Source of the DNA: a bacterium
GTDB taxonomy: Bacteria; Hinthialibacterota; Hinthialibacteria; OLB16
Assembly (NCBI GenBank): GCA_022072055.1
Contig: JAJVIK010000021.1
Location: 1-64,000, forward strand
Direction of reading: 5' to 3'
DNA: 64,000 bases
Shown here one piece after another: positions 14,814 to 19,898 of the stretch. The position numbers were made by a program, and so were the translations under genes. The stretch's first letter is position 1, and each line of letters begins with the position of its first letter. Below the pieces are notes generated by a model, which ran no database searches, was not told the origin of the DNA, and saw only the letters and a list, made by a program, of their open reading frames with translations.

Positions 14814-16388
14814 TTACTCCAAGGGTCCGTCGGACTCCTGTGGATGCTTGTTCAGCCAGGCGCCGAAGCACGTGAAAAGGACGGCCACCAGGAGGTATGC
14901 GACCGTGAACTGGGGCGCGGTCCACAACCCAAAGTGATTGGCCACGAAACCGTTGAGCATCCGGTGGGAATGGATCAACCCCACCGCCGAAAGAACCGCG
15001 GCGGTGAGCATCCAGATCGCGGCCGCGAAAAAGGTTCTCTCAATCAGCGCGACCGCCGCCGCAGCCCAGATCATGCAGCTCAGGATAAACCCTTGATTGA
15101 GGGCGATCAAACCCAAGACATGCATCCCGCCGGCCTCGAAGGCGGGGATCATCTCCCCCAGGGTTTTTCCGGCCACGTTCAGCGTGTTTCCGATCACCAG
15201 ATATCCCCAGGCGGCCACGGCGGGAAACAGGCCGATGGCCACCGCGGGGGCGTGCTCGCGGGGAGTGGACTGAAAGGCCTGCGCGGTGATGATGATTCCA
15301 ATCCAGAGCACCACCGCGACCCCAGCCTCGATGGGAACGAGCGCCAGGACCAGCGGCATGGCTCCAAGGAAGCAGATCAGGCTGATGAAGACCGCGTTGT
15401 AGATCGAATAGCCCGCGCGCGCGCCCATGCGCTTCCAGCCGGGATGTCCGATGTAGATGGTGGTTGGAAAGCAGCTCCCATAGGCCGCCGCGAGCAGGGT
15501 TCCGATCCCATTCACCGCGAGCGAGGAGCGCGCGGAGTAGGAATCGCCCGCCGCCTCGGCGCTTTCGATGTTTTGAAGCGACCCGACCACGTTGAAGAGG
15601 CCCATCGGGAGGATCACGCTGAAGTAGCTCCACCCCTCCGCGAAGGCTTCGCGCCAGCTCCCAACCGAGAGGTCGGGCATGTGGGGGCTGAGTTGGGCCG
15701 CCGCCGGGCCAATCTTGGCGGAGTCCATGATCGGCTGCCCAAACCAGCCCGAGAGCCACGCCAACAAGGTTCCCGCGAGAACCGCGAGCAGACCGCCGGG
15801 AATCCCGAGCGGGTAGCGCAGGCCGGTCAGATATTGGAGGAGCAGGATCCCCAGAGGGACAAACGCGATCAGGGGACGCTCGAAGATCTGCAGCGCGAAC
15901 TCCATCGAAATGAAGGTGACCGCGATCCCGGCCAGGGTGGAGAGCAGGGCCGCGCGTGGGGTGCGCTTGCGAATCCATTCCGCCACGAATGCGCCGGCAA
16001 ACTCGATGGTTCCACTCCCCAGGCAGGCGATCAACCCGACCTTCCAGGCGAACTCGGCATCACCCGTGGCGCGAAAGACCGGGGCGATGACCAGGAAGAT
16101 ATAGGCAAAGACGCTCGGGGTGTTGATGCCGTAAGGGAGCGCCGTGACATCCGTCCGACCCGTGCGAAGCATCAGTTGACGAGCCTGCCAGGCGTAGAAG
16201 AGGTTCCCGACTACAATCGAAATCGCCGCCCCCGGGAGGATGCGCCCAAAGACCAGTTCGCGGGGCATTCCGCAAACCGAGGTGCACAGACCGACAATCA
16301 CAATCAACTGGACCAGGTTATCAACCGCCAGGCCGAAGAATCCATCGAGATCGTGGGGAACAAACCATTTGGGAGCGCGCGAGGGCAT
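14814..16388 (-). CDS. NCS2-like (AzgA-type) membrane permease
   Basis: A 524-residue polytopic inner-membrane protein with about 12-14 hydrophobic segments. Family traits include the early [14 protein letters not shown] helix, the [15 protein letters not shown] motif (about residue 85) and the half-helix region [17 protein letters not shown] (about residue 275). Together these resemble the AzgA side of the nucleobase/xanthine-uracil permease family, which imports by proton symport. The start at MPSRAPKWF is chosen because it gives the expected N-terminus; no clear Shine-Dalgarno sequence precedes it. It heads the unit with the DUF1080 and lyase-like genes, so the cargo could be a sugar-acid or nucleobase; the link is only by position. 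Confidence 0.8.
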
Positions 16389-16465
16389 GACAGGGAGGAA
16401 GGATAGCGGTCCGCCTGGCGCGAGGGGAGTGGTGGGGAAAACCTCTTGGGACAGGAGGGCGATTC

Positions 16466-18232
16466 GTGGTACGGTCCCGCTGCCGCCGTATGGGAACCGC
16501 ACATCCATCCTCCGAGCTTGCCGTCTGGGGCCACTTCAAACGACTGAACGAAGCGGAACCGTTCCTGGCGATCCGACTGGCTCTCATCCAGGGCGCCATG
16601 GCGTTCGGTTTGTTTTGGGTCGGCGAGCCGCGTGGTCAGGTTCCGGAAGAGTTTGTCGAATTCCCGGCGAGTTTTCTCGGGTTATTCGACGAAGCAAGTG
16701 TGATCTTTCTCGGGTACCCCCTGCGCGAGGTGGTTTGGAGCGGGGAGTGGTGGCGCCTGATCGCGGGCGTGGCGCTCCCCCCCAGTCTGGGGTGGTTCGC
16801 CTTCTCTCTGATCGCCTTTCTTCCTTTCGCCAAGGTCCTGGAGGAGCGTCTTTCGCGGATCCATGCCCTTGCGGTGTATTTACTGGGGGGGGGTATCACT
16901 CTCACCTTCGATTTCCTGACCTCTCCAACCCCGACCGCCGGAGGGTTGGGTATGGTTTTCGCGGCTGGGGGCGCTGTGGTCGCGATTCGGATGAGCGATT
17001 CCAGGGAGAAAGGAGTGGAGCCCACCTCGATTCCGACCAGCGCCTGGATGAGCCTCCTGCTCCTCGGCGGACTCGCCTGGATCAGCACCGAGGGTGCGGT
17101 GCTTTTGGCCCAGTCCTCGATCTACTCAGGCATGACGGAAATCAGCCCCACTCCCCTCGCCCTTGCCCTCGCGGGGGTCACCGGATTCGCCATGACCCTG
17201 CCGCTTCACTCCATATCCGAGCGCCGCATGGGTGAGGATGAGGAGGATCCCCACGGGGAGGAGATCCCAGTTTCAAGGGGGGGCGGTTGGAAGTTGGCTC
17301 TGCCCGCCGCCTGGATGGTTCTTTTGGTCGGATATGGCGGGTATGAGTGGAGGAGGGCGACCCGCGTGGACTGGACTCTCTGGCGCATTGAACCCCAGCT
17401 TCGCCGGGGGGATGCAGACGCTTTCCGGATCGCGGAGGGGCTCCTCACCCTCAAACCGGAGGATGCATTCCTTCAGAAGCGGATCGCGGTGGCCCATGCC
17501 GAAACCGGAAGCTATCCCCAGGCTCGCGACCTTCTGGAGAACCTTTCCCGCGCGACGGAGGCCAAGAAGGGCAATAAGACCCACCTTCGCGCGGAGGCGC
17601 TCCGCAGGCTCCGGGCCTTTCGTCTCAATCGACGCGACTCGAAAACCTTATTGCCCTGGAGACACTCGGGTTTCTCCTCCAATTACGACACGGACAGTCT
17701 TCGCCTGCTGTGGGACCGTGGGCATGTGGCCCGGCTTCAAGGGGCCAGCGATGAACTGGCGACCGTGAGAACCAAACTGATGGCCGCTGTCGAGCAATTC
17801 GCGCCCGCGAGCAATCGGGTCTCCAAAGAGCTTTCCAATGAGGCAAGGTGGCGCGAGGCGATGGTCCTGAATCACCGGGCCTATGTTCGCGCGGAACTTG
17901 GGGGAGATGTGCGCCAAGCCTCGAAGGAGGCCACGATTGCGGTTTCCCTATCCCCCACGGCGGAGAATCTCGACACGCTCGGGTGGGTGTTGGTGAAGCT
18001 GAACCGCCCGGAGAATGCGGTTCCCCTTCTGGAGCGGGCGCTGCTTTTTGAGGATCCCGATTCGGCGGGTACGATCCACTACCACCTGGGGCGCGCGCTT
18101 GGGCTTTTGGGGGAGGAGGAGGGCTCCCGGAAGCATTTCGGATCCGCGCTTTCCTTCGACCTCGAATGGTGGGAGGAGCTCGACATCGCCGCGAGATGCC
18201 CCTCCTGCCTCGAAGTCGAATCTTCGCTGTAG
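16466..18232 (+). CDS. Rhomboid-fold pseudoprotease fused to TPR repeats
   Basis: Starts at a GTG with AGGAGG 7 bases upstream (588 residues). Residues about 25-250 are hydrophobic and follow rhomboid order: WSGEWWRLIAGVALP (the GxWWRLxT region), KVLEERLSRIHALAVYLLGGG, then TAGGLGMVFAAGGAVVAI. In active rhomboids this last motif is GxSG; here the Ser position is Leu161. The later helix that should carry the catalytic His (SPTPLALALAGVTGFAMTL) has none. A further helix near 275-290 leads into a soluble C-terminal half (about 300-585) with TPR-like helix pairs. It is therefore probably a membrane scaffold, not a protease. It is divergent from the permease (77-base gap) and precedes rpoN. Confidence 0.75.
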   Translation: MVRSRCRRMGTAHPSSELAVWGHFKRLNEAEPFLAIRLALIQGAMAFGLFWVGEPRGQVPEEFVEFPASFLGLFDEASVIFLGYPLREVVWSGEWWRLIAGVALPPSLGWFAFSLIAFLPFAKVLEERLSRIHALAVYLLGGGITLTFDFLTSPTPTAGGLGMVFAAGGAVVAIRMSDSREKGVEPTSIPTSAWMSLLLLGGLAWISTEGAVLLAQSSIYSGMTEISPTPLALALAGVTGFAMTLPLHSISERRMGEDEEDPHGEEIPVSRGGGWKLALPAAWMVLLVGYGGYEWRRATRVDWTLWRIEPQLRRGDADAFRIAEGLLTLKPEDAFLQKRIAVAHAETGSYPQARDLLENLSRATEAKKGNKTHLRAEALRRLRAFRLNRRDSKTLLPWRHSGFSSNYDTDSLRLLWDRGHVARLQGASDELATVRTKLMAAVEQFAPASNRVSKELSNEARWREAMVLNHRAYVRAELGGDVRQASKEATIAVSLSPTAENLDTLGWVLVKLNRPENAVPLLERALLFEDPDSAGTIHYHLGRALGLLGEEEGSRKHFGSALSFDLEWWEELDIAARCPSCLEVESSL

Positions 18233-18277
18233 GTTGACCTAGCCACATCCACCTTTGTTCCAGATGAAACTTTTCCC

Positions 18278-18308
18278 TTGACGTCCACGCTGGCTTCGCG
18301 TGTATAAT
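18278..18308 (+). promoter_or_regulatory. Probable sigma-70-type promoter of rpoN
   Basis: TTGACG (18278-18283) and a perfect TATAAT (18303-18308) are separated by 19 bases, somewhat longer than ideal. They lie in the 148-base gap before rpoN and give a leader of about 65 bases. The leader contains small inverted repeats (TTGC-ATGA-GCAA at 18326-18337, and GCGATT pairing with AATCGC at 18342-18347). Confidence 0.55.
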
Positions 18309-18380: not shown

Positions 18381-19898
18381 ATGGAACAACGGATGTTTCT
18401 TGAGCAACGTCTGAGCCAGCGCATGGTGATGACCCCTCGCATGCAGCAAGCCATCAAGATGCTGCAGATGCCCTCCATCGAGCTGGAAGCATTGGTGGAG
18501 GCCGAGCTGCTGGAGAACCCGCTTCTGGAGGAGATCCCGGTGGATGACCTCCAGTCGGCGGAGACCCAGGAGTCCATCGGTTCAAGCAGTCTGGACGAGT
18601 TGAACTTGGGTGAGAGTTTGGGGGAAGACCGCGCCGCCGAGGACTGGGTCTCCTCGGTGGAGGAGGCCCCGCGGAAGACCGAGGGGGAAAACCTCACCGA
18701 GGGGCGGATTGAACTCACCGATGACTGGGAGAAGTTTTTCGAGGATGGGGGCATGGATGTCTACAGTTCGCTCCCGTCCGGCGGAGTCGAGTCCTCCGAT
18801 GATGAATTTGACCGGGTCATTCCGGATGCGGTATCCCTTCGCCAGGAGCTGGAGCGCCAGCTCGATATCGCGGTGGACCTTGAGTTCGAACGCGAAATCG
18901 GTCGCGCCATTCTGAATTCCCTGGATGAGGATGGTTATCTCCCGGCCACCTTGGAGGAGCTCGCCGATCAGACCGGGGCGCCCGCTGAGGATGTGGAGCG
19001 AGTCCTCAAAGTCATCCACGGCTTCGAGCCGGCCGGGATCGCCGCGCGCAGCCTCTCCGAATGTCTGGAGATTCAATACCACGCGCGCGGCATGAACGAT
19101 CCCGCGCTGCTTGAGGTGATCCGCAACCACATCGAGGACCTGGAGCGCAAGCGCTACCAGAATATCGCGCGCGCGCTCAAACTCCCCATCAGCGAGGTCC
19201 AGGCTCTCGCGGATGAGGTCGCCAAGTTCGAGCCTCGCCCCGGCCGCACGCTCACCCCCACCGAGAACGAATACATCACCCCGGATGTCTTCGTGGAGAA
19301 GGTGGATGGCGACTGGCAGGTGCGTGTCAATGATGACGGCATCGCGCCGCTGCGGATCTCCCCGCGCTACCTCCACATGCTTGAAAAGAAAGAGGAGCTG
19401 GACAGGGACACGGTCCGCTATCTCAAGGGCCGTCTGCATTCGGCGGTGGATCTCATCAAGAACATCGAACAGCGCAAACAGACCCTCTACCGGGTGACCA
19501 AGGAGATCGTGAACCAGCAGACCGAGTTCTTGGAGAGCGGAGTGACCCACCTCAAGCCGATGCGCCTGCGCGATGTGGCCGATGTGGTCGGCGTGCACGA
19601 GACCACTGTCTGCCGGGTGGTGAATGGAAAGTACGTGGACACCCCGCAAGGGCTTTTCGAGCTCAAGTATTTCTTCTCCAGCGGCCTGGAGTCCGACAGC
19701 GGAGAGGACGCCTCCTCCAAGAGCGTGATGGCCATGGTCAAGGAGCTGGTGGACAACGAAGATCCGAAGAAACCGCTTTCCGACCAGAAGATCTCGGAGC
19801 TTCTCAAGGCGCGCGGGATCAATGTCGCCCGCCGGACAGTCGCCAAGTACCGCGACATCATGGGTATCCTTCCCACCTCGATGCGCAAGCGCGTCTAA
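18381..19898 (+). CDS. rpoN: RNA polymerase sigma-54 factor
   Basis: Alternative sigma factor that recognises -24/-12 promoters and needs AAA+ activators. It is 505 residues with all three regions. The Gln/Leu-rich activator-interacting N-terminus (QRLSQRMVMTPRMQQAIKML) comes first. The acidic linker (about residues 50-140) follows. The core-binding domain starts near LRQELERQLDIAV. The C-terminal DNA-binding part has the helix-turn-helix VADVVGVHETTVCRVVNGKYV and the RpoN box ARRTVAKYRDI (from residue 483). None of the usual neighbours (hpf, ptsN, lptA/B) are adjacent. AAGAAGGG serves as the ribosome-binding site. At least one good sigma-54 promoter is seen elsewhere in this window (52706-52720). 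Confidence 0.97.
   Translation: MEQRMFLEQRLSQRMVMTPRMQQAIKMLQMPSIELEALVEAELLENPLLEEIPVDDLQSAETQESIGSSSLDELNLGESLGEDRAAEDWVSSVEEAPRKTEGENLTEGRIELTDDWEKFFEDGGMDVYSSLPSGGVESSDDEFDRVIPDAVSLRQELERQLDIAVDLEFEREIGRAILNSLDEDGYLPATLEELADQTGAPAEDVERVLKVIHGFEPAGIAARSLSECLEIQYHARGMNDPALLEVIRNHIEDLERKRYQNIARALKLPISEVQALADEVAKFEPRPGRTLTPTENEYITPDVFVEKVDGDWQVRVNDDGIAPLRISPRYLHMLEKKEELDRDTVRYLKGRLHSAVDLIKNIEQRKQTLYRVTKEIVNQQTEFLESGVTHLKPMRLRDVADVVGVHETTVCRVVNGKYVDTPQGLFELKYFFSSGLESDSGEDASSKSVMAMVKELVDNEDPKKPLSDQKISELLKARGINVARRTVAKYRDIMGILPTSMRKRV

Follow-up and report, generated by a model that had tools for sequence, protein, structure and literature searches.

The window, a stretch of 64,000 nucleotides of bacterial DNA, carries on its forward strand a reading frame (16466..18232) whose product joins a rhomboid-like membrane half to a TPR half. 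The frame encodes 588 residues from a GTG start and 580 from an ATG at 16490, and residue numbers in the features and alignments described here are counted from that ATG. As read from the sequence, a Shine–Dalgarno-like AGGAGG (16453..16458, forward strand) lies 7 nt 5′ of the GTG. A multi-helix, permease-like gene without a Pfam match over cut-off diverges from it on the reverse strand (14814-16508), and rpoN, encoding sigma-54, follows on the forward strand (18381..19898). The source genome measures 5.86 Mb, and the gene is on its contig C13.

The frame is a real gene, since it is present at full length, with the same losses of catalytic residues, in two other genomes at 34–42% identity. These are OLB16 (Candidatus Hinthialibacteria bacterium OLB16, LMZT01000091.1; 42% identity in the alignment) and OFTM149 (Candidatus Omnitrophota bacterium OFTM149, JAJDBZ010000245.1; 34%). 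The Pfam Rhomboid profile, whose cut-off is 22.6 bits, matches residues 85-191 of the window protein with a score of 29 (E 1.4e-6), and TPR_2 matches at 27.8 against a cut-off of 27. All three proteins match each profile separately, with Rhomboid scores of 29.1, 25.4, and 26 bits.

Full-length members occur in 3 of the 14 genomes of the class, all three belonging to one family. When a profile of the membrane half was run against 386 near and far genomes, with the best six candidates taken from each, the three members were recovered at E <1e-140 and no additional member was found; the next matches were eight weak ones, at 4e-10 to 6e-7. The full-length profile, with the best three candidates from each of the same 386 genomes, likewise added none, its other matches being nearly all TPR cross-matches. 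No relative was returned by a contig scan with the single window protein; with the family profile, the scan returned the relatives in OLB16 and OFTM149, along with a single rhomboid from a myxobacterium, which bears GASG and AHAGG. Viral contigs scanned for family members yielded none, and searches of one literature library turned up no paper on a TPR-bearing bacterial rhomboid that is inactive by nature. In a tree of 22 rows the pseudo-rhomboids form a single, fully supported group, but their stem, at 2.75 changes per column, is too long to name a sister group or to fix their ancestry among rhomboids.

The membrane half opens with a short N-terminus, some 25 residues long (33 if counted from the GTG), and TM1 (residues 26-44, 16565..16621), which was located by hydropathy and is matched by a model helix over the same residues. 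The loop that follows, L1, is 55 residues long. Its core (residues 75-98, 16712..16783; GYPLRE..WSGEWWR.. in the alignment) includes the WR motif at 16751-16756, and EWWR stands in L1 of all three members. With 16 of 24 residues invariant and pairwise identities of 71–75%, this core is the best conserved membrane stretch, whereas TM5-TM6, the former His region, is only 25–33% identical among members. Seven hydrophobic segments run across the family; the seventh (TM7, residues 271-291, 17300..17362) falls under the script threshold in the window protein, yet it is a helix in the model (263-305). The TPR region then occupies residues 305-565 (17402..18184), with its best Pfam stretches at 309-355 and 491-518. 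Between the TPR groups lies a conserved block (residues 386-420, 17645..17749) in which 17 of 35 positions are invariant, and 33 of 110 are invariant over residues 456-565. All of these features lie on the forward strand, as does a C-terminal CxxC (Cys570 and Cys573, 18197..18208), which is invariant in the alignment of the three members. In each member this motif comes after a conserved DLxWWxEL block, and it is possibly a disulfide or a metal site outside the membrane.

Rhomboid catalysis depends on positions that this family has lost throughout. In the window protein the alignments place Pro97, Trp102, and Ser106 at the former HxxxxHxxxN of TM2 (16778..16807, forward strand), and the same positions hold Pro/Trp/Ser and Pro/Leu/Ala elsewhere in the family, so that the motif is kept in none of the three. 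The former GxSG of TM4 reads GGLG (16940..16951, forward strand), with the Ser replaced by Leu153 (16946-16948); its equivalents are GSIG and GALG, giving Leu, Ile, and Leu at the Ser position. The catalytic His position of TM6 (17174..17176, forward strand) is aligned with Gly229, and Phe and Ala replace it in the other two members. The sequence-only reading had seen a dead rhomboid core joined to TPR repeats, an assignment that profile, alignment, and model now back. It had placed the lost Ser at Leu161, a number counted from the GTG that becomes Leu153 from the ATG, and its missing His agrees with the alignment; the loss in TM2 is additional to what it described.

The intact condition is found all around the family. 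The eight next-nearest relatives from the membrane-half search of 386 genomes all retain HxxxxHxxxN, GxSG, and the TM6 His; among them, L200 has GASG. A class comparison was made by script on 17 intact frames of other rhomboids, leaving out Pfam matches below cut-off as well as L083, a 939-residue frame barely over the cut-off in which the motifs are absent by eye. In these, HxxxxHxxxN and GxS were each found in 17 of 17 and the TM6 His in 16 of 17, L031 reading WWAHIGG in TM6. The window genome itself encodes two more rhomboids with catalytic motifs, on contigs C9 and C7. Loss of all catalytic positions, found in three of three members and absent from the next relatives and the other class rhomboids tested, is thus a property of the pseudo-rhomboid family, and the earlier proposal that loss of Ser and His might be conserved across a clade is borne out, more distant relatives keeping both. 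Of the long frames among the best-scoring rhomboids listed from 193 genomes, 14 were read by eye, and all 14 retain the Ser and the TM6 His; a list of this kind would miss dead rhomboids and gives no measure of how frequent dead rhomboid-TPR proteins are.

Several other rhomboids of the class deserve a separate mention. L076 (G007, contig C139) has intact GASG and HxxxxHxxxN motifs, but its TM6 His is replaced by Gln (AQLGG), making it, on its sequence, a second and independent candidate for a dead rhomboid. L082 and L089 (G001, C130) are one rhomboid gene spread over two frames that shows GASG and AHIGG, a split that may come from a frameshift or from faulty assembly. Two same-family rhomboids, L032 (G000, C7) and L075 (G001, C11), have GASD for GASG; the soluble tail at their C-terminus, about 165 residues in length, is TPR-like by eye. 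Three of the 14 class genomes (G006, G010, and G012) have no rhomboid over the Pfam cut-off.

Structure prediction describes the membrane half as a six-helix rhomboid-type core plus a seventh helix. A first model, with the three family rows as its sole alignment, was poor in this half (mean pLDDT 55.9). Adding 14 rhomboids with catalytic motifs from public viral contigs gave a model of residues 1-320 with a pLDDT of 78.9 and a pTM of 0.77; the presence of these 14 sequences in its alignment makes the model lean to the rhomboid fold. Superposition on GlpG had been suggested as a check, and the predicted core retains the six helices: by VIA-align, 174 of 181 residues superpose at an rmsd of 3.4 (Z 15.8). 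Scores were Z 14.3 over 227 residues against iRhom1 and Z 14.1 over 236 against iRhom2, both superpositions extending to residue 294 and including TM7, and Z 8.2 against yeast Der1. A Foldseek comparison of the membrane-half model with the PDB returned nothing at E <= 0.001, GlpG being top-ranked at E 9.4e-3. With the full-length model, which is too weak in its membrane half for a rhomboid to appear, the 50 matches listed were helical-repeat proteins, mostly TPR. Two lines of support are independent of the deep-alignment model: the Pfam match, and a comparison of profiles in which the partner was an active 6+1 class rhomboid (E 2.1e-7, probability 93.6). The alignment adds WR, LE..LGR, Y, and G positions common to the family and to active rhomboids. 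A GxxxG packing motif is seen only in TM6 of OLB16 (GTCFG), one Gly being retained in all three.

The distribution of charge fits an N-in orientation as in GlpG: Lys and Arg are more frequent in the predicted inner than in the outer loops of each member (9/75 versus 3/75, 10/71 versus 4/79, and 7/73 versus 3/73). If the N-terminus is inside, the seven helices should, by this predicted topology and as in YqgP, leave the TPR half outside the membrane, on the same face as L1. Three Arg directly after TM7 of the window protein run mildly against the positive-inside rule; the 15-residue flank after TM7 contains one Lys or Arg in OLB16 and three in OFTM149.

In each of the three family genomes the pseudo-rhomboid gene is the immediate upstream neighbour of rpoN, in the same orientation and at gaps of about 140–200 nt, and to this extent the synteny anticipated from the sequence alone holds. 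Between the two genes, on the forward strand, is a promoter-like site (18277..18308) composed of CTTGACGT and, after a 19-nt spacer, TATAAT; the former is identical in all three genomes and the latter is present in two. A promoter scan allowing spacers of 16–18 nt did not report this 19-nt site. The conserved elements between the genes suggest that rpoN probably has its own promoter. Nor does the pairing extend to other families: of the 10 other class genomes in which rpoN was found (G013 gave none), not one has a rhomboid scoring over the cut-off on the contig that carries rpoN. The frames upstream of rpoN are other genes in nine of these, and the contig of G012, with under 800 nt upstream of rpoN, is too short for its neighbourhood to be judged. 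On both grounds an rpoN operon or functional coupling was put low. The divergent permease, which had been offered as part of the setting, is not a constant neighbour, ligA standing in its place in OLB16; the OFTM149 contig starts just before the pseudo-rhomboid gene.

Among known systems, iRhom1 and iRhom2 resemble the window protein in being naturally dead rhomboids with a 6+1 helix core. They differ in being eukaryotic, in having ADAM17 as partner, and in their large extra domains: iRhoms have a large extra domain in L1 and a long cytosolic N-terminus, both absent from the window protein, which has a 55-residue L1 and TPR repeats. Derlins (Der1, Dfm1, and Derlin-1) are eukaryotic ER proteins of six helices with a cytosolic C-terminal tail; they are not known to have a seventh helix with a TPR domain, both of which the window protein has. 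They are alike in their dead rhomboid fold and in keeping the WR motif, which is used in client recognition (PMC12615303). The closest plan is that of Bacillus subtilis YqgP (GluP), a rhomboid core with 6+1 TM helices and a C-terminal, extracytosolic TPR domain (PMC7231995), an arrangement also predicted here. YqgP, however, is an active protease with catalytic Ser S288, where the window protein has Leu153, and its N-terminal domain, cytosolic and metal-binding, spans about 178 residues, against some 25 residues before TM1 in the window protein. The window protein is, in architecture, YqgP minus the N-terminal domain and catalysis. Active relatives show parts of the same design. L182 (G141) and L186 (G074) share the rhomboid core, an extra C-terminal hydrophobic stretch, and TPR repeats, but have HxxxxHxxxN, GASG, and the TM6 His in place. 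L078, L079, and L080, active 6+1 rhomboids of the same class, share the core and (by eye) a seventh hydrophobic stretch, but have their catalytic residues and no TPR domain; L078 has an EPYVTLRL-like N-terminus in common with the window protein, and L079 and L080 are among the next profile matches. It may be added that, according to the YqgP paper, no activity could be detected for B. subtilis YdcA, although it has every sequence hallmark (PMC7231995).

Taken as a whole, these observations are best explained, by analogy and with moderate confidence, by a dedicated rhomboid pseudoprotease, located in the cytoplasmic membrane and acting as an adaptor or scaffold. In this proposal the L1/WR region and the rhomboid core would bind a membrane partner or clients that are themselves membrane proteins, much as Derlins do and as YqgP does when it serves as an adaptor, and the outward TPR domain would hold a periplasmic partner. 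The protein would then either hand its clients to another machine, for which FtsH is the natural candidate, or assemble an envelope complex. On this analogy the protein is likely to be an adaptor or scaffold, and delivery of clients to FtsH is possible; an FtsH (M41) gene is present in the window genome. Two precedents underlie the mechanism: the L1 WR motif of the yeast Derlin Dfm1 is needed to recognise membrane substrates (PMC12615303), and the dead S288A form of YqgP still serves as an FtsH adaptor for MgtE (PMC7231995). Adaptor function in YqgP requires the N-terminal cytosolic domain and an open active site (PMC7231995), and the absence of such a domain from the window protein counts against the adaptor reading. 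The initial comparison with an iRhom/derlin-like scaffold thus stands in part: the 6+1 core does superpose on iRhom1 and iRhom2, but the nearest architecture is that of YqgP/GluP, and the scaffold mechanism is inferred.

A purely structural envelope scaffold, in which the core does no more than tether a TPR domain that organises a complex in the periplasm, and no clients are handled, is the less probable reading, though one to be taken seriously. The strong conservation of TPR blocks 386-420 and 456-565 while TM5-TM6 drifted, together with the invariant CxxC at the end of the protein, is what it would lead one to expect, but the top conserved membrane stretch is L1/WR rather than the TM helices generally, which fits a binding role for the core. 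A bolder version of the adaptor proposal would make the protein a bacterial counterpart of the Derlins: a descendant of a 6+1 rhomboid that has abandoned cutting and whose L1/WR face and outward TPR domain form one composite receptor, choosing membrane-protein clients and handing them to FtsH along an ERAD-like route, an idea that is speculative and rather doubtful. It is improbable that the protein regulates the cell's active rhomboids by competing for their substrates, as has been proposed for iRhoms; the retained L1 region and the two further rhomboids with catalytic motifs would suit such a regulator, but there is no genetic link, the active rhomboids being on C9 and C7 rather than C13, and the tree gives the family a long stem of its own.

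That the gene immediately precedes rpoN, in the same orientation, in all three genomes could also point to a membrane sensor tied to sigma-54, but a TPR domain outside the membrane would be unable to touch sigma-54, and the promoter-like site and the 10 other class genomes further argue against this very improbable arrangement. Hardly more credible is an unrelated seven-helix protein that matches rhomboids by composition: the poor family-only model might be read in this way, but the Pfam match exceeds a curated cut-off at E 1.4e-6, the profile comparison is likewise significant, and the positions held in common with active rhomboids include WR and LE..LGR. Finally, other Ser residues in the core might be thought to allow cutting with another nucleophile or with relocated residues. 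The window protein has no His at 125-240 and OLB16 none at 115-292, and OFTM149 has only His199 and His203 in this region, so that the members have no possible Ser-His dyad in common there, and continued proteolysis is extremely improbable. The preferred reading remains the pseudoprotease acting as an adaptor or scaffold.

The rhomboid pseudoproteases whose roles are known, the iRhoms and Derlins, belong to eukaryotes, and the bacterial evidence found for a role of this type comes from YqgP, an active protease that doubles as an adaptor. The window protein belongs to a real, family-wide, catalytically dead bacterial rhomboid with a TPR domain. With catalysis lost and the client-binding loop and extracytoplasmic TPR domain kept, it would be a case in which nature has separated the two functions, and the family would thereby test the proposal, made in the YqgP paper, that the adaptor function is ancestral (PMC7231995).
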